Below are positions 1,358 through 40,944 of a DNA stretch of 40,944 bases, piece by piece. Under the pieces are notes generated by a model. The model ran no database searches, was not told where the DNA came from, and worked only from the letters and a program-made list of their open reading frames with translations. How positions within the stretch are numbered: position 1 is the first letter of the stretch; every line of letters starts with the position of its first letter. Both the position numbers and the translations under genes were made by a program. The stretch is from positions 1 through 40,944 of IMG/VR virus record IMGVR_UViG_3300025889_000270. One strand, given 5' to 3'. The stretch is from a virus.

Positions 1358-2215
1358 TTGAGACAGCTAAAAATTACCCAGCAGATCACTGTTCGGGAGA
1401 ATAAATCTATTACCTCGTATTTTAACGAAATCAGTAAATACGATCTTATCGAAGCAGACGAAGAAGCAGAGCTTGCAGAGCGAATACAACAAGGTGATAA
1501 AAAAGCACTAGAACGACTAGTTAATTGTAACCTTAGATTTGTAGTATCTGTAGCAAAACAGTATCAACGTAAAGGTTTATCGCTTGAAGACTTAATAGGC
1601 TATGGCAATGTAGGTCTTATAAAAGCTGCAGAAAGATTCGATCACACTAAAGGATTTAAGTTTATATCTTATGCAGTGTGGTGGATAAGACAATCTATAA
1701 TGCACGCGCTTGGCAACGAGTCAAGATCAATACGTTTACCGCAAAATCAACTCCAGTTACAGAGAAAAATTGGAAATGCAACAATAGAGTTTCTACAGCA
1801 GCATGAGCGTTTACCAACAGACGAAGAAATTGCAAAAATAGTTGACGAGCCTGTTGATAAAGTTTCTTTCTTAAACAACAACAACTTTACAGGTATTAGT
1901 GCTGATGCACCTATGGCAGGCGCTGAAGATAACTACAATATGTATGACCGTATGGCATCAGACTCCGTAACAGACGCTCATCTACAAAGTGAATCTTTAA
2001 GTAACGATGTAAAGGCTATATTCAAAAAAATGCCTAAAAACGAAGCATTTGTTATCAAAAATCACTTTGGTATTGGCGGTGGTCATCAAATGTCATATGT
2101 AGAGATCGGTGAGATACTAGATTTGAGCTCAGAGCGCGTAAGACAAATCAAAGAGCGCGGTTTAAGACGTATTAGAAACAACGATTGGCATAAATTACTA
2201 CAAGACTATGTATGA
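1358..2215 (+). CDS. RNA polymerase sigma factor, Bacteroidota primary (RpoD) type
   Basis: This 285-residue sigma-70 factor should redirect host RNA polymerase to phage promoters. It starts at TTG (1358): the resulting MRQLKIT opening is the conserved N-terminus of flavobacterial RpoD, and no ATG lies nearby in frame, which fixes the start. Region 1.2/2 covers about residues 17-118 (NLRFVVSVAKQY, GLSLEDLIGYGNVGLIKAAE, FKFISYAVWWIRQSI). Region 4 is at about 243-272 (YVEIGEILDLSSERVRQIKE). Length and lack of a long region 1.1 match the roughly 287-residue flavobacterial RpoD. The region 3 linker is diverged (GISADAPMAGAEDNYNMYD). It overlaps the next gene by 8 bases. Promoter recognition has probably shifted, but this cannot be read from the sequence alone. 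Confidence 0.93.
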   Translation: MRQLKITQQITVRENKSITSYFNEISKYDLIEADEEAELAERIQQGDKKALERLVNCNLRFVVSVAKQYQRKGLSLEDLIGYGNVGLIKAAERFDHTKGFKFISYAVWWIRQSIMHALGNESRSIRLPQNQLQLQRKIGNATIEFLQQHERLPTDEEIAKIVDEPVDKVSFLNNNNFTGISADAPMAGAEDNYNMYDRMASDSVTDAHLQSESLSNDVKAIFKKMPKNEAFVIKNHFGIGGGHQMSYVEIGEILDLSSERVRQIKERGLRRIRNNDWHKLLQDYV

Positions 2216-2825
2216 TAATATCTTAACTCAAAACAGTAAGCTTAAAAAGACCAGTAAGTTAGCTATGCGTAGGGTTTTAAACTTCGGTATACCCGCGTAT
2301 AAATCTACAACTGGTAAGATCACATGCCCTTTTGCTGATGAATGTATCAAGTACTGCTACGCTCGTAAAGGCACGTTTAGATGGCCTAACACTATAAATG
2401 CTTACGAACATAGGTTTCGTATCGCTCGTAGCCCAGACTTTGAGACTATAATGAACGCAGCGCTACTCATTAAAAACCCACACTTTGTTCGAGTACATGA
2501 CTCAGGAGACTATTTTAGCGAAAAATATATAGATCGTTGGTTCAGTATTATGCGAGCTAACCCAAACGTAAAGTTCTACTCCTATACTAATAGTGTGCTT
2601 TTAATGAAGATGTATGATAAAGGTATACCTGAAAACTTTGATTACATACTCAGTACAGACGGTAAGCACCGCAAGTACGTAGATAAGTCTACAGACAGGC
2701 ACGCAGTTATATTCAACACGGTAGAAGAACTAGAAGCAGCAGGCTATGTCAACGCCTCTGAAAACGATTTACTAGCTACACGATGGTACAGTGAAAACAA
2801 AAAAGTTGGCCTTATAAAACACTAA
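2208..2825 (+). CDS. GP88-like protein with Cys cluster (205 aa)
   Basis: This 205-residue protein resembles the phage 'Gene product 88' family, whose function is unknown. The recognisable core is a cysteine cluster C40-x5-C46-x3-C50 (CPFADECIKYCYARKG), then an alpha/beta part with VRVHDSGDYFS and YSYTNS segments. The YCYA cysteine cluster recalls metal- or iron-sulfur-binding proteins, but the spacing is not the radical-SAM CxxxCxxC. It overlaps the sigma gene by 8 bases (ATG inside the TATGTATGA end), so it is probably co-expressed with it. The family assignment is from recall of the motif only. Confidence 0.65.
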   Translation: MYDNILTQNSKLKKTSKLAMRRVLNFGIPAYKSTTGKITCPFADECIKYCYARKGTFRWPNTINAYEHRFRIARSPDFETIMNAALLIKNPHFVRVHDSGDYFSEKYIDRWFSIMRANPNVKFYSYTNSVLLMKMYDKGIPENFDYILSTDGKHRKYVDKSTDRHAVIFNTVEELEAAGYVNASENDLLATRWYSENKKVGLIKH

Positions 2826-3325: not shown

Positions 3326-3943
3326 ATGTCACACTCAAGGCTTGATCGTCTTAACAGGATGAAGGTTGTGTACCGTAAAGACCCTCACTCTGATAAACCA
3401 ACTGAGGTTTACTGGTGGGGTCGCTTTTATGAGTATGGAACCCATCAATGCTTTGATTTATTTAGAAGCAAAGCTAAAATAACGACGTACAAGTCCTTAA
3501 AATGGCACAGCATCGTATTAAAGTATCTCAACCAAGAAATGTCAAAGGATAAGTTTAGAGATGTTTTATATTACATAGGTAATCCTTTAAATGAATTCAT
3601 TACATTTGAGATAAGCGAGCTAATTATAGAAGACATAATAAAAAACCTTGATACTTATGACTTCAGAATAGCACCAAAGAATAAATCAAGGAAAATTATA
3701 TTTAATGACGGCGTTCCGTTAACCATCAATGAAAAGCTAAAGATCGTTGGTAGTCTTATTGGCAGAGGCAAACGCTTCAGCGAAGAAGACATCTACGAGT
3801 CAATGCTATACATAAATGGTTGTGGCGACAAAATAACGGTGAGTAAAATAGCTCGTATGCTTGGTTGCTCAGACCGTACCATACATCGGAACATGAGTAA
3901 TCAATTAAAAGAAGAAAAAGATTTACTCAATGCGTCATTATGA
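3326..3943 (+). CDS. helix-turn-helix protein coupled to second sigma factor
   Basis: This 205-residue protein has a C-terminal helix-turn-helix (about residues 172-195: VSKIARMLGCSDRTIHRNMS), the 'IAxxLGxSxRTxxR' pattern of replication-initiator and regulator DNA-binding domains. The N-terminal part, rich in Tyr/Trp and Lys, is not recognised. It begins 43 bases after the previous gene behind a TAAGGGG leader, one of few SD-like sites here, and ends in an ATGA overlap with the sigma gene, so it could act with it in transcription control. Alternatively it is a DNA-binding replication protein. Confidence 0.6.
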   Translation: MSHSRLDRLNRMKVVYRKDPHSDKPTEVYWWGRFYEYGTHQCFDLFRSKAKITTYKSLKWHSIVLKYLNQEMSKDKFRDVLYYIGNPLNEFITFEISELIIEDIIKNLDTYDFRIAPKNKSRKIIFNDGVPLTINEKLKIVGSLIGRGKRFSEEDIYESMLYINGCGDKITVSKIARMLGCSDRTIHRNMSNQLKEEKDLLNASL

Positions 3944-4698
3944 AAAAATACGACCCGCGTACTTACGCGTCTTACAAGGACAGTGTAAGCGCAGCAAGGG
4001 CTAGAATTAAAAAAGAAACACTAGCCAACTTAAAAAGAGATGAAGTAATTACAATGTACCTACCGCTCGTTGAAAATATCGCCAGAAAGTTCTCTACTAG
4101 CCATCAGGCTAGCGGTGTAATGAGTCTAAACGATATGATACAAGAAGGCTCGATAGGTTTGATAATGTCATATGATACTATCAACTGGGAAAAAATCAAG
4201 CAAAGTCCAGATCCAGAGCGTACCATACGATCTTTCTTTTCTAAAAGAATAAAAGGTGCAATACGTAGAGCTATTGACAAAAACAGAGGTGACATACGTA
4301 TTCCAGAGCATAAGTTAAACGAGATACGAAAAGACAACGGCAAAGACAAGAAGTTAATGCAAATGTTCTTTAACAGTGTGTTCTTGTCTATAGATGAAAA
4401 GTTAGAGAATGACGAAGATTATTCTAACCAAGTTGTCGACAATTCTAAGCCATATATGATACACAAGATCAACGATTATCTTATGGACCTCATGTCAAGG
4501 GTTTTAGAGGAGAGAGAGTATGAGGTTGTAAGGTTATCTTACGGGTTAGACTGCGACAAGCATTCTGCCAAACAGATCGCTGAAATCGTCGGCATAAACG
4601 TCGATACCGCGCACGTACGCGTGTCTCAGATAAAACGTAATGCACTGGAAAAATTAATTGAGCGCGTAGATCGAAACGCGTTGTTAGAGTTCATGTAA
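3940..4698 (+). CDS. divergent sigma-70 family factor
   Basis: This 252-residue protein has the sigma-70 layout: region 2 at about residues 34-115 (MYLPLVENIARKF, SLNDMIQEGSIGLIMSYDTI, RTIRSFFSKRIKGAIRRAID) and a region 4 helix-turn-helix at about 205-242 (SAKQIAEIVGINVDTAHVRV, SQIKRNALEKL). It is far from the RpoD-type factor upstream and lacks the conserved WWIRQ region 2.3/2.4 signature, so it probably recognises a different promoter class, perhaps late genes. It starts in the ATGA overlap with the helix-turn-helix gene and is followed directly by a tRNA gene. Confidence 0.85.
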   Translation: MKKYDPRTYASYKDSVSAARARIKKETLANLKRDEVITMYLPLVENIARKFSTSHQASGVMSLNDMIQEGSIGLIMSYDTINWEKIKQSPDPERTIRSFFSKRIKGAIRRAIDKNRGDIRIPEHKLNEIRKDNGKDKKLMQMFFNSVFLSIDEKLENDEDYSNQVVDNSKPYMIHKINDYLMDLMSRVLEEREYEVVRLSYGLDCDKHSAKQIAEIVGINVDTAHVRVSQIKRNALEKLIERVDRNALLEFM

Positions 4699-4800: not shown

Positions 4801-5265
4801 ATGAAATTAGAAGTTTTAAGATTTAGTAGTGAAAAAGACAGTACAAATGGGTTATTATTCGATGTCTCAGACGGGCGTTCATTCCTTTGTTACACCCTTG
4901 AAGATGAACACAGAGACAAAAAAGTTATGGCTGAAACTAGAATCCCTGCAGGAACATACCGGATTACTCTCCGGACGACTGGAGGATTTCATGGACGATA
5001 TTTAAAGAAGTATGGCTCGATGCACAAAGGCATGCTTTGGGTTCGTGATGTTCCTAATTTTGAGTATATTCTTATTCACACTGGTAATACTGATGAGCAC
5101 ACTGCTGGGTGCCTCATTGTTGGTGATAGTCAACAAACTAATTTTGGTGAAAGTGACGGATTTATTGGTTCATCTACTCAAGCTTACAAAAGAATTTATC
5201 CGCCGATTGCAGCGGCTCTTGAAGCAGGAGAAGAAGTAACAATCACATACATCGACTTTGATTAA
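4801..5265 (+). CDS. DUF5675 family protein (154 aa)
   Basis: This 154-residue protein looks like the DUF5675 family found in many phages and genomic islands. It is beta-rich with conserved ETRIPAGTYRITLRTTGGF (residues about 45-63), an H75 region and a H93-TGNTDEH-H100...GC104 block. The His...GC arrangement recalls L,D-transpeptidase/YkuD-type catalytic sites, so an activity on peptidoglycan (lysis or entry) has been a natural guess, but it is unproven for the family. It stands alone between two tRNA genes rather than with the late genes, so it may act early or have its own timing. Confidence 0.7.
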   Translation: MKLEVLRFSSEKDSTNGLLFDVSDGRSFLCYTLEDEHRDKKVMAETRIPAGTYRITLRTTGGFHGRYLKKYGSMHKGMLWVRDVPNFEYILIHTGNTDEHTAGCLIVGDSQQTNFGESDGFIGSSTQAYKRIYPPIAAALEAGEEVTITYIDFD

Positions 5266-7045: not shown

Positions 7046-8758
7046 ATGCAAGTAAACACGACCGAGATTAATGGTTTTGAAATCGATGTATTCAACCATT
7101 ATGATCTTGAGACGGGCAAGACACAGGGGATATGTCCCTTGTGTTCTGCCGATCGCAAGAAAGAAAATCAGAAGAAAGCATGTGCTTCGTATGATTGGGA
7201 ACGCGGTCTTGGAACTTGCCATAATTGCAATGAAACATTCCAACTACACACTTTTAAGAGAAAAGGCTCAGCAGATAAAGTCTATGTAAGACCAGAACCT
7301 GTAGAGATATCTCCGGTAAGTGAGAAAGTTGAGACTTGGTTTAGCAAAAGAGGTATAAGCGTCGCAACACTGAGTAACTTAAAAGTTACATCTGGTGATG
7401 AGTTTATGCCTCAAACAGGTAAGACCGAAAGCGTAATAAAGTTTAACTACTTCATTGCCAATGCTTTAATAAATGTAAAGTATAGAGATGGACGTAAGAA
7501 CTTTAAACTTTATAAAGGCGCTGAGAAAGTATTCTATAATCTAGACAGCATAGCTAATACTAGCGAGTGTGTTATAGTTGAGGGCGAAATGGATGTTCTT
7601 AGCTTACACGAAGCTGGTGTTAGAAACGTTGTATCTGTACCTAACGGTGCTACACTTGGTAATAACAACCTTGACTACTTAGATAACTGTATTGATTACT
7701 TTGTAGACAAGGAAAAGATTATTATAGCTGTAGATAACGATGAGGCAGGACAAGCGTTGCAAGCAGAGCTTATTCGTAGGCTAGGTGCTGAAGTTTGTTA
7801 TGTAGCAGACTTTAGCCCGTGTAAAGACGCTAACGAGTACTTAATTAAGTACAACAAAGAAGATCTATCTGATATAATACATAAAGCAAAACCCGTTCCA
7901 TTAGAGAACGTTACTACGCTTCGTGATATAGAAGATGATATAATCGACTTTGTTCAGAATGGGTTTAAACCTGGATTTCAAATAGGTTTAGATAACTTTG
8001 ATAACATATTTAGCACGTATACAGGTCAGTTCATAACTGTTACAGGTATTCCATCAAGTGGTAAATCAGACTGGGTAGATCAAATGTGTGTTGGTTACAA
8101 CCGTAACTATGGTTGGAAAACAGCATACGCATCTCCTGAAAACACACCTACATATCTACACGCACATAAGCTTGTAAGAAAAATATGGGGCGGTATGCCT
8201 CATAAGTCTGATATTGGTACAGAGCATTGGAAAAAAGTTACTGACCATGTCAACGACAACTTCTTTTTTATAGACATGGAGCGTTATAGTTTAGATGCAG
8301 TTCTTAAAAAAGGCGGTGAGCTAGTTAAACGTAAAGGTATAAAGTGTCTTGTTATCGATCCTTTTAATAAAGTTAGAGACCTAAAAGGCAATCAAAGTGA
8401 CGTTAATATATACACCATGGAGTATCTCACTAAAATTGAGATATTTGCTAAAAAGTATGACGTGCTTGTTGTTATAGTCGCTCACCCAACTAAAATGTAC
8501 AAGGACAACAATGGAAACATTGAAGAACCTACCATGTATAACATTAAAGGTGGTGGTGAGTGGTACGATGCGTCTTACCACGGTTTGCTTGTACATAGAA
8601 ACTACGAGCAAAAGACAGTTAAGGTAAAAGTGTTGAAAGTTAAGTTCCAAAATCTGGGAGATAATGGAGCTGAGGCACACTTTAAATGGGATGTGAACTC
8701 AGGATTATATATGCAAATACCTGATATAAATGAGCAAGCATTACCTTGGGAAAGTTGA
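7046..8758 (+). CDS. T7 gp4-like primase-helicase
   Basis: This 570-residue replication protein combines primase and DnaB-type helicase. The N-terminal zinc finger has C30-x2-C33 and C58-x2-C61. The TOPRIM core has E180 in VIVEGEMDVL and D230-x-D232 in IIAVDNDEAG. The helicase Walker A is GIPSSGKSD (about 334-342), Walker B is CLVIDPFN (about 434-441), followed by VVIVAHPTKM. The length matches T7 gp4 (566 aa). It starts directly after the SSB-like stop. It should unwind and prime DNA for a replicative polymerase that is not in this window. Confidence 0.93.
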   Translation: MQVNTTEINGFEIDVFNHYDLETGKTQGICPLCSADRKKENQKKACASYDWERGLGTCHNCNETFQLHTFKRKGSADKVYVRPEPVEISPVSEKVETWFSKRGISVATLSNLKVTSGDEFMPQTGKTESVIKFNYFIANALINVKYRDGRKNFKLYKGAEKVFYNLDSIANTSECVIVEGEMDVLSLHEAGVRNVVSVPNGATLGNNNLDYLDNCIDYFVDKEKIIIAVDNDEAGQALQAELIRRLGAEVCYVADFSPCKDANEYLIKYNKEDLSDIIHKAKPVPLENVTTLRDIEDDIIDFVQNGFKPGFQIGLDNFDNIFSTYTGQFITVTGIPSSGKSDWVDQMCVGYNRNYGWKTAYASPENTPTYLHAHKLVRKIWGGMPHKSDIGTEHWKKVTDHVNDNFFFIDMERYSLDAVLKKGGELVKRKGIKCLVIDPFNKVRDLKGNQSDVNIYTMEYLTKIEIFAKKYDVLVVIVAHPTKMYKDNNGNIEEPTMYNIKGGGEWYDASYHGLLVHRNYEQKTVKVKVLKVKFQNLGDNGAEAHFKWDVNSGLYMQIPDINEQALPWES

Positions 8759-11794: not shown

Positions 11795-11825
11795 AAAACC
11801 AGCTGCGAAAGTGGCTGGTTTTTTT
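11795..11825. terminator. bidirectional intrinsic terminator between converging gene blocks
   Basis: AAAACCAGC plus TGC, a GAAA tetraloop, then GTG plus GCTGGTTTT forms a 12-bp stem (inner TGC/GTG with G-U pairs). It is followed on the + strand by a run of seven T (11819-11825) and flanked on the - strand by A-T pairs giving TTTT after the stem. It sits exactly where the + strand early genes and - strand late genes meet; the stop codon of the - strand gene lies in the T-run. Confidence 0.85.
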
Positions 11826-12915
11826 ATCTAAACTGGTAGTTAATCCCTGCTTTGATCTCAAAGACTTCTTTATCCCAGTACTTCATATACTCGCCTTCTG
11901 CGAATATACCCCAGTTCAATCCTATCTTATAACCTATAACTCCACCGAAGTTGTAGTCGATCCATTGCCCTGGTATAAAATGATTTGTATTTTCTAGCTC
12001 ATCAGCAAACTGCTCGTAGGAAAACATATGATCTCCTATAATATGTTTGTGCCACGGTAGCATACTTGCCCATGAATGAACCCAAAAGTCTTCTGAGTAG
12101 TGATAATAATCAATACCGATTATAGCTGATAAGGAGCCAAGTGCGCCAATGCCAGCGAGTTGCTCTGCATTATATGCATTTACAATATCGCCGTATATAT
12201 ACTTTCTAAAATCAAGATCAGTGTCAGCAACTTTGTTACCGTCTGGATCTAACCAGTACCAGTCAAAATTGTCTACCTCGTCGTCGTTATCGTAATCGAT
12301 ACCGTAATATATATCTTCATAACCCATATCACGCACTAGGTCCCACCACGGGCTAGTAGCCAAATATTCTGCAATAGGATTGTAACCATAAGCTTGGTGC
12401 TGTCGTGCTGCAACACCTAAACTAAAATCTACTTCGCCAACACGCAGTCTTCCTCTCACCTCAACTTGAGTGTAATCCAGGTTAACTAACCCCTGGTTGA
12501 ACAGCTCTGCTTTTACCATCCAATACTTACCTAAGTATCTGAGGAAGTAACGCTGGTTTATATAGTCGTTTCCTTGTTGTCTGCCGCGATCAAATTGAGC
12601 TAAGTACTCAAACCCCTCAACAGCACCAACAGTTGCGAATAAAGATGTTGTAGATTGGTTATGACCATCGTAAAATGGGTTTTGTCTTTTCTCGTAATCG
12701 TAACGAGCTACACGGCGAATGCCAAATGTATATCTGTAATCAAATGGGTTTTCAATAGTTATATCCATTAGGTCCCCACCTTGAGAAACAAAGTACTCTG
12801 ACTGTGCTTCCATTGGCGACGCTCCGTACACACTGGTGTACAACGTGCTGTACTTTAACAATCCCTGCCCAAACGCTGAGGTTGATATAAAAAATGTTAT
12901 AAGTAAATTTTTCAT
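11824..12915 (-). CDS. secreted outer-membrane beta-barrel-like protein
   Basis: This 363-residue protein has an N-terminal signal peptide (MKNLLITFFISTSAFG, probable cut before QG). The body alternates aromatic and polar residues (RYTFGIRRVARYDYE, NQRYFLRYLGKYWMVKAELF) and ends in a strand with C-terminal aromatic-plus-Arg, KAGINYQFR, as in outer-membrane beta-barrels. An insert rich in Asp (DYDNDDEVDNFDWYW, about residues 203-217) could bind calcium or sit outside the cell. It is the last gene of the late transcript, 2 bases after the thioredoxin-like gene. I recall related proteins in uncultured marine phages. Roles in lysis or receptor masking are guesses. Confidence 0.65.
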   Translation of the reverse strand: MKNLLITFFISTSAFGQGLLKYSTLYTSVYGASPMEAQSEYFVSQGGDLMDITIENPFDYRYTFGIRRVARYDYEKRQNPFYDGHNQSTTSLFATVGAVEGFEYLAQFDRGRQQGNDYINQRYFLRYLGKYWMVKAELFNQGLVNLDYTQVEVRGRLRVGEVDFSLGVAARQHQAYGYNPIAEYLATSPWWDLVRDMGYEDIYYGIDYDNDDEVDNFDWYWLDPDGNKVADTDLDFRKYIYGDIVNAYNAEQLAGIGALGSLSAIIGIDYYHYSEDFWVHSWASMLPWHKHIIGDHMFSYEQFADELENTNHFIPGQWIDYNFGGVIGYKIGLNWGIFAEGEYMKYWDKEVFEIKAGINYQFR

Positions 12916-12917
12916 GC

Positions 12918-13268
12918 TTAAAACTTATTAGCCCCGGTTAGCTGGTCAACTTCTTTTTGTATCTCACGATAATCTATATGGCTAAGCGATAAATTAATAC
13001 CAGCCTCCCATCTTGTAATTTCTTCACCGTTTTTGTACAATATTAATGTAGGCACTGATCTTATGCGCTCATCTTGCTTTAGCGCAGCATTGTTATCTAT
13101 AGATGCTTTAAATATTTTAGCATCTTTAATTTTAATAACGTCCACATAATTATTTGCGGAGTTGAAGCTCGCGTTGTAATGCACCAAAACTACGCCACGT
13201 TTACTAATAGTACTAGAAGCAAAAGAACATAGTGAAAATGCAATCAGCAGAAGTATTGTCTTTTTCAT
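12918..13268 (-). CDS. secreted thioredoxin-fold protein lacking the CxxC
   Basis: This 116-residue protein has a signal peptide (MKKTILLLIAFSLCSFASS) and a thioredoxin fold: strand GVVLVHYNA, helix, strand AKIFKASID, then the cis-proline motif SVPTLILYKNG (P73) and a C-terminal helix. Where thioredoxins have WCxxC it has NASFNSANN (about 32-40), with no cysteine, so it cannot act as a disulfide oxidoreductase. A scaffold, chaperone or binding role in the periplasm is more likely. It lies between a one-TM protein and a beta-barrel-like protein, spaced by 1-2 bases. Confidence 0.72.
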   Translation of the reverse strand: MKKTILLLIAFSLCSFASSTISKRGVVLVHYNASFNSANNYVDVIKIKDAKIFKASIDNNAALKQDERIRSVPTLILYKNGEEITRWEAGINLSLSHIDYREIQKEVDQLTGANKF

Positions 13269-13269
13269 A

Positions 13270-13545
13270 TCACTTCATTTCAAATAGTCTCTTTTCCATT
13301 TTATTGAGCTGCTCTTTAATATCGGCTACATCATCTTGCGTATTCATGATAGTCTCACGTATTAGCTGATCTTTAAGATCGTATTCCATTCTGCCAACCT
13401 CAGCAGGTGGCAAAAGCTTAGCTTCTTCAATACCTGCTTGTAAGTCAAAATACCCAAGAGTAAATATTCCGACTGCAGCCATAATAGCGCCTATAGTTTT
13501 TAGGGACAACCCTATCACGGTGTTTTCTGAAATTTCTTTTGCCAT
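13270..13545 (-). CDS. single-TM protein with coiled-coil tail (holin/envelope candidate)
   Basis: This 91-residue protein has one membrane segment at about residues 10-33 (IGLSLKTIGAIMAAVGIFTL) and a charged C-terminal helix with coiled-coil pattern (DDVADIKEQLNKMEKRLFEM). The layout fits a single-span phage membrane protein such as a holin-like or spanin-like component, but there is no lipobox and no adjacent lysozyme. It begins the three-gene envelope cassette and follows the giant virion gene by 48 bases, a gap in which I see only a weak 5-bp hairpin. Confidence 0.62.
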   Translation of the reverse strand: MAKEISENTVIGLSLKTIGAIMAAVGIFTLGYFDLQAGIEEAKLLPPAEVGRMEYDLKDQLIRETIMNTQDDVADIKEQLNKMEKRLFEMK

Positions 13546-40479: not shown

Positions 40480-40944
40480 TTAGTAAGCTGTAAATGTTCC
40501 ACCACTATTTGTTAAGCTAGGGAATGTACCGCTAGTATTCGTGGTGTTGTTTTCTAATCTATACTCAGCCAATAAATTGGTGGTTACGCCAGCATCAGAA
40601 CATGTCATTGGAGTACCACTGTTATACAGAGCTGTTACTTCTGATTGTGTTAAAGTCTTGTTATACACACTTACTTGGTCTATACCACCTTTGAATACAC
40701 TAGCATTGTTAGGTGAACTATTAACAGCATCCCCAATAGCTACGCTTCGTATATTAAAAGTTGTTAGGCTCCGAGAATTAAACTGAATGCTTTCTGGTAA
40801 TTTTGTTCCATTCCAGTATAGATTCATACCAGAAGAAGTCGTGTCTGAATTATCACGTGTGAATACTAAGTGTACAAATCCTTCACTATTTACATTGCCT
40901 CTGTTTGTAGAATACCATCCGTTACTATTTACCCCCGTAATAGA
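40480..40944 (-). CDS. LamG/concanavalin A-like lectin-domain protein, N-terminus outside window
   Basis: The frame is open to the right edge, giving at least the last 154 residues. It reads like the C-terminal part of a LamG/concanavalin A-like domain: EGFVHLVFTRDNSDTTSSG, MNLYWNGTKLPESIQF, and the hallmark GGIDQVSVYNKTLTQSEVTA with ALYNSG, then AEYRLENNTTNTSG. Such domains bind carbohydrates and are common in phage tail fibres and host-recognition proteins. Its size and other domains cannot be seen here. Confidence 0.75.
   Translation of the reverse strand, partial: SITGVNSNGWYSTNRGNVNSEGFVHLVFTRDNSDTTSSGMNLYWNGTKLPESIQFNSRSLTTFNIRSVAIGDAVNSSPNNASVFKGGIDQVSVYNKTLTQSEVTALYNSGTPMTCSDAGVTTNLLAEYRLENNTTNTSGTFPSLTNSGGTFTAY

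Follow-up and report, generated by a model that had tools for sequence, protein, structure and literature searches.

The window analysed here is the whole of a 40,944-base virus record, which is linear, lacks end repeats and is probably a fragment. Its minus-strand late block ends in three genes, here termed P3, P2 and P1 from the upstream side, which converge on plus-strand early genes and are separated by 1 nt (P3–P2) and 2 nt (P2–P1); the position and spacing given for them in a preliminary description of the window are exact. The features referred to below are as follows.

4801–5265, plus strand: DUF5675 gene, a candidate endolysin (PF18925, E=3.9e-27; phrog_1501)
11795–11822: terminator-like hairpin, found on the plus strand immediately past P1, where the early and late blocks converge
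11824–12915, minus strand: P1, 363 aa, predicted exported outer-membrane-type beta-barrel
12918–13268, minus strand: P2, 116 aa, predicted exported, thioredoxin fold
13270–13545, minus strand: P3, 91 aa, one hydrophobic segment
13594–22650, minus strand: giant late protein, 3018 aa, upstream neighbour of P3

The hairpin, which may be used bidirectionally, was the one example found in a scan for which 1.5 were expected in shuffled sequences, and is not significant by itself. The 3018-aa protein carries an HExxH-like motif (HELQHHLWE) and matches no Pfam family above cut-off; giant proteins occupy the same place before P3 in several relatives. Elsewhere in the window, the early block contains two sigma-70-type factors (1358–2215 and 3940–4698, plus strand), a GP88 family protein is encoded at 2208–2825 (plus strand; PF17338, E=2.5e-35), and a 115-aa ORF near the right end (40480–40827, minus strand) weakly resembles the terminal parts of large proteins (phrog_24074 and the virion structural protein family phrog_8510) and is perhaps a tail-fibre fragment.

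The terminase and portal of the window match phrog_6681 (5e-167) and phrog_6547 (2e-158), respectively, and its virion structural proteins likewise match phage families. Relatives of the large structural protein occur in the Cellulophaga phages phi38:1/phi40:1 and the Flavobacterium elemoA phages, and from this relatedness we take the window phage to be crAss-like. Judged by Cellulophaga phi38:1 and the other structural-protein relatives, phrog_6681 and phrog_6547 appear to be crAss-type families, and a terminase and portal of this predicted type would place the phage within the Crassvirales.

P3 has a short N-terminus, a single hydrophobic segment at approximately residues 15–33, a strongly conserved juxtamembrane segment (LP...R.EYDLKD..IR..I.NT) and a C-terminus with coiled-coil-like helical hydrophobic periodicity (shuffle fraction 0.033), which agrees with its earlier description as a single-span protein with a coiled-coil tail and leaves that architecture a prediction. 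The median length of distinct P3s is 97 aa. Matches to the window P3 in Pfam, PHROGs and NCBIfam were all weak, as were those of 20 P3 entries to PHROGs, where the commonest families, phrog_20984 (6/20) and phrog_1009 (5/20), carry no function and one entry matched a tape-measure family at 5e-4; a sequence search of the PDB gave a best E of 0.26. Across 84,980 bacterial and archaeal genomes, P3 was found in three contigs, all metagenome-assembled, two of them titled Bacteroidetes and one Gammaproteobacteria.

P2 scores barely above the cut-off for Pfam Thioredoxin (PF00085; 24.0 bits against 23.5), and its AlphaFold2 model (pLDDT 86) adopts a thioredoxin fold (VIA, Z 11.8, 1.9 Å over 89 residues). 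At the CxxC site the window P2 reads FNSAN; the cis-Pro is retained and a lipobox is absent. Modelled fold and cis-Pro together would make P2 a thioredoxin of the cysteine-free, exported kind that had been proposed, its export being judged, like that of P1, from the sequence. P2 thus resembles the thioredoxin family PF00085 in fold and cis-Pro but differs in its predicted export and its active site: WCxxC occurs in none of 138 distinct P2s, which are therefore not redox-active thioredoxins by this measure, whereas [FWY]NxxN stands at the site in 119 of them (most of the other 19 form one group of similar sequences). An NxxN universal to P2, as suggested by 62/63 sequences of a first set, is not upheld by this wider set. 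A cis-Pro-like motif, scored by a simple pattern, is present in 136/138, and a strict lipobox in 1/138. Because the cysteines have been lost while NxxN and the cis-Pro have been kept, the groove seems to be retained for binding rather than redox chemistry. Redox-dead thioredoxin folds frequently serve as binding modules, and the P2 family is predicted to show how a redox enzyme can become a dedicated binding module.

In its structural model P1 forms a barrel with 12 long strands (pLDDT averaging 72, with residues 64–99 below 50); the protein begins with an N-terminus resembling a signal peptide and ends in YQFR, as expected from its initial description as an exported outer-membrane-like protein ending in an aromatic-Arg strand. 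The model has the form of a membrane-spanning antiparallel barrel and is similar to small porins and autotransporter barrels such as NanC, KdgM, CymA, EstA and EspP (about 12 strands, Z about 10–11). Unlike these proteins, P1 has no sequence match in the PDB, Pfam, PHROGs or NCBIfam; its clear relative in BFVD is one UniProt viral entry (A0A516LKJ4; 26% identity, TM 0.68–0.71). A strict lipobox was found in none of 82 distinct P1s. OMPLA is also among the barrel matches (Z 9.2), but the residue following the conserved His of FWxH is Ser, Ala or Thr and a fixed Ser nucleophile is therefore not seen at that site, so that an OMPLA-type phospholipase was rejected.

To follow the genes beyond the window, viral contigs were searched separately with each of them or its alignment, yielding 219 contigs for P3, 217 for P2 and 431 for P1, of which the best 80 each were examined; profiles for P1–P3 took their training loci from the first searches and were then applied once to later loci. 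Starting from P3, P2 was the next gene in 77/80 loci (best 80 of 219), the other three ending there; starting from P2, P3 was directly upstream in 78/80 (best 80 of 217), the other two being cut by the contig end; and starting from P1, where the best 80 of 431 contigs added 76 new loci, both P3 and P2 were present in 71/76, the other five being cut. Every linkage miss among the examined loci is thus a contig end. As a search with any one of the genes recovers the others adjacent to it, the trio is linked beyond chance and forms a real module, and the co-conservation in related phages that the preliminary description had asked about is borne out. The spacing of P3 and P2 ranges from a 4-nt overlap to a 12-nt gap in 140/142 unique pairs.

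P3–P2 is the core of this module and P1 is optional. P1 follows P2 in many carriers, precedes P3 in others (for example, L045–L047, L147–L151, L153–L155, L225 and L253) and in a few loci is separated from P2 by one gene. It was not seen in 55/80 P3-anchored loci (best 80 of 219, some of them short), nor near P3–P2 in 10/25 P3 clusters with adequate flanks, which suggests that P3–P2 can act alone. Apart from P2, neighbour clusters lie near P3 in at most 37/80 P3-anchored loci among the matches listed. In L048 (9355–9999) and L050–L052, a lipoprotein of approximately 214–228 aa lies directly before P3 and could be the outer-membrane partner where P1 is unseen. Eight proteins (the window P1 and P3, L067 P3 and P2, L230 P1, L147 P1 and P3, and L176 P3) were compared by tblastn with 50,697 named phage records, and no match to the trio was found; the window P2 was outside this query set, and the collection may lack records that closely resemble the window.

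The carriers, which are probably mostly phages of Bacteroidota, do not share a single virion type. A comparison of backbones covered 30 of 41 carrier records that had been hand-picked for length and spread, several of them closely related, and 20/30 share their terminase and portal families with the window. The terminase of G027 and G031 belongs to a different family (phrog_38), the portal of G027 is phrog_156, a third combination of terminase and portal occurs in G040 together with a tail tape-measure protein, and G037 encodes a tape-measure protein. Given these differing backbones, the module crosses virion types.

The preliminary description saw no usual lysis set and suggested that the trio might be an alternative lysis or surface-exclusion system. 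The first of these statements is not confirmed: the window encodes a candidate endolysin in its DUF5675 gene, and the probably fragmentary state of the record has to be allowed for. In the window no gene lies between the giant late gene and P3, but close relatives have differing peptidoglycan enzymes at this slot: an M15 peptidase (L002, L022, L023, L025, L026 and L028), an amidase (L024) or DUF5675 (L027). A DUF5675 relative also precedes P3 in L040. Other neighbours of the trio or pair include a two-TM holin-like gene, a phrog_3427 holin, M15 and amidase endolysins, and u-spanin-like lipoproteins with a C-terminal TM segment, with matches to phrog_894 endolysin (2e-34), phrog_822 amidase (1.6e-57) and phrog_3427 holin (9.6e-21) and to the Pfam families Peptidase_M15_3, Amidase_2 and Phage_holin_4_1. 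Recurrent gene orders are h2-P3-P2-P1-uSpanin, h2-P3-P2-M15-uSpanin, P3-P2-M15-h3, M15-P3-P2-P1 and P3-P2-P1-M15-h3, and L144 has hol2TM-P3-P2-M15-u-spanin as adjacent genes. The labels in these orders and in the cluster counts derive from blastp to references picked among the neighbours, and the u-spanin label denotes a lipobox plus a C-terminal TM segment (of three such proteins tested, one weakly matched phrog_1804 'Rz-like spanin' at 0.0038 and two matched nothing).

By these labels, a lysis-type gene lies near P3 in 19/25 clusters with adequate flanks and none does in 6/25. The least biased test uses Pfam M15_3 or Amidase_2, because the other labels and the u-spanin query were picked among the neighbours: an endolysin of these families lies within 2.5 kb of P3 in 11/16 records that carry one (1.85 expected, P=9e-8) and in 8/12 (1.45 expected, P=1e-5) after thinning by eye to one per lineage, the expectation treating position as uniform and G004, which has no P3 match, being dropped from the distance test. 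U-spanin-like genes co-occur with the module in 11/41 records, and 9/12 of their places are within 2.5 kb of P3 (11 related records; query picked among the neighbours). The association is not obligate. DUF5675 was near P3 in 0/16 places (15 records); in G011 its gene and that of a phrog_3427 holin are 17 nt apart, and in G010 and G020 a u-spanin-like gene is found no more than about 1.1 kb from it; the phrog_3427 holin is within 2.6 kb of P3 in only 4/11 records holding both; and lysis-type genes lie 20–34 kb from P3 in G008, G010, G020, G025, G026, G036 and G040, with an endolysin at that distance in G025, G026, G036 and G040 and a holin within 1.2 kb of the endolysin in the last three. These distant endolysins and holins, the absence of DUF5675 near P3 and the 6/25 bare clusters indicate an accessory, frequently found in the company of lysis genes, rather than an obligate part of one cassette. 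A replacement of the canonical lysis set was likewise rejected, since endolysin, holin and u-spanin-like genes sit in the same records. Of the proposed alternative lysis system, the lysis context therefore survives, in the neighbouring M15, amidase, holin and u-spanin-like genes and the endolysin enrichment, and the substitution for a missing set does not; canonical lysis genes elsewhere in the genome, which had been named as evidence to the contrary, are in part present, being carried by relatives beside the module or 20–34 kb away.

We favour, tentatively and at somewhat less than an even chance, the reading that P3–P2, joined in some carriers by P1 as a partner in the outer membrane, is an accessory phage lysis module affecting the timing or execution of lysis. 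P3 would sit in the inner membrane and expose its conserved juxtamembrane segment and coiled coil to the periplasm, and exported P2 would act as a non-catalytic adaptor that binds P3 through its kept groove, with NxxN and the cis-Pro. The pair may then modulate the timing or execution of lysis beside the phage's own holin and endolysin, by analogy with T and RI of phage T4, and P1, where present, may tie or signal this action to the outer membrane. The inner membrane and the periplasm are the most likely sites of action of the core, because P3–P2 is constant, unlike P1. The earlier suggestion that the trio spans all three envelope layers is accordingly retained in part: the three proteins match the types proposed (inner-membrane, exported and outer-membrane), but spanning is unlikely to be the core function given the clusters in which P1 is unseen, barring another outer-membrane partner. 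Several results count against an accessory lysis role, namely that the charge rule gives no settled membrane direction for P3 (61/130), that no fused P2–P3 gene occurs among the loci examined, that the holin-like label h2 reflects size and hydropathy and is given by no library searched, and that DUF5675 does not lie near P3 in the places counted above.

Among known lysis systems, the nearest layout to P3–P2 appears to be that of T4, in which holin T has one TM segment, a small N-terminus and a periplasmic C-domain, and antiholin RI is periplasmic with a signal peptide (passages drawn on from PMC11413866). The hydropathy of P3–P2 fits such a one-TM protein with a signal-peptide-exported partner. 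However, no similarity was detected between P3 and T or between P2 and RI (hhalign of single sequences, probability 0.2%, E 0.26 and 0.37), T has 218 aa against the P3 median, the thioredoxin fold belongs to P2, and the T and RI genes lie about 100 kb apart in T4 whereas P3 and P2 are adjacent and often accompanied by an extra barrel. A thioredoxin-fold lysis partner does not appear in the parts drawn on from PMC10136315, PMC12596118, PMC6139136 and PMC11413866, and may exist elsewhere in print.

The main rival to an accessory role is that of a spanin, which we consider unlikely while giving it serious weight: P3 in the inner membrane, P2 in the periplasm and P1 or a host protein in the outer membrane would bridge the envelope and finish lysis where there is no spanin. 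The predicted locations fit, and P3, like the inner-membrane components of two-component spanins (lambda Rz/Rz1, T4 PseT.3/PseT.2), is a short protein with a coiled-coil-like stretch whose gene lies near an endolysin, and resembles an i-spanin in its one TM segment and helical periodicity, with an orientation that is ambiguous from charge. P3 is not too short for such a role, since the combined periplasmic lengths of two-component spanins given in the relevant section of Kongari et al. (PMC6139136) are 62–300 residues, a range that P3 plus P2 fits, and no spanin was found in 91/677 phages there. A spanin-like role could apply in some carriers, because a crude lipobox scan of 19 records, less one 1-kb tile of G019, showed no lipoprotein in several of them (for example, G000, G007, G022, G025–G027, G030 and G031); these absences are subject to fragmentary records and to false negatives, the scan having overlooked the lipoprotein that precedes P3 in G024, of the L051 lineage. 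Unlike two-component spanins, however, the module has no lipoprotein partner, its strict lipobox counts (a single P2 and no P1) being those of neither an o-spanin nor, for P1, a u-spanin; it includes a thioredoxin fold, and no similarity of P3 to Rz was detected. The window P2 and P3 were also unflagged for a lipobox and have their sole hydrophobic segment at the N-terminus, which is not the u-spanin arrangement. Unimolecular spanins, the only type reported for Bacteroidetes phages in the part drawn on of a 2025 survey (PMC12596118), are lysis-cassette and trans-envelope proteins, as those of the module would be, yet belong to a gene family of their own that is frequently encoded next to it, and this coexistence, together with the many carriers in which P1, the sole outer-membrane part, is unseen, argues against a spanin function.

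Superinfection exclusion or surface remodelling, in which P1 would occupy or mask a receptor with P3–P2 as a periplasmic helper, is less probable still. The predicted outer-membrane-type barrel is consistent with it, and the gene of a Bor-like outer membrane protein adjoins Rz in lambda, so that a lysis cassette can also house envelope genes that serve other purposes; however, the core pair occurs with no P1 in sight, exclusion does not predict enrichment near endolysin genes, and the general searches brought up no similarity to receptors. A chaperone or assembly role, in which P2–P3 would help late envelope or virion proteins to fold or insert with P1 as one client, accords with the binding functions of redox-dead thioredoxin folds and with P1 as the commonest third gene of the module, but is improbable, as P3–P2 is common where no P1 is in sight and other neighbour clusters reach no more than the share of loci given above.

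A broader formulation of the accessory lysis role, which we put forward as speculative and doubtful, is that the module represents an undescribed class of lysis machinery in which a redox-dead NxxN thioredoxin adaptor would link the coiled coil of an inner-membrane protein both with lysis proteins and, by way of a barrel made by the phage, with the outer membrane; the genes would move together between unrelated lineages of tailed phages and provide an outer-membrane or timing step in phages with no spanin. How phages with no recognised spanin break the outer membrane is described as an open question in the section drawn on from Kongari et al. (PMC6139136), and the part drawn on from a review (PMC10136315) contains little on host lysis by crAss-like phages beyond spanins and lysins. 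The trio may be an undescribed part of how uncultured bacterial viruses time or complete their exit, and, as a fixed pair and often a trio that recurs across several virion types and is absent from the named phage records searched, it offers a defined gene set for manipulation.

Further observations concern P3 and its surroundings. A 66-aa coiled-coil-like protein with a C-terminal TM segment (9788–9988 in L068, and relatives) lies directly before P3 in 10 loci and resembles XhlA in layout only. Two copies of P3 are present in each of G014 (7301–7570 and 67340–67609), G033 and G034; they are 60.0 kb apart in the first and 47.0 kb apart in each of the other two, which is better explained by genomes of these lengths having been assembled past one turn than by duplication.
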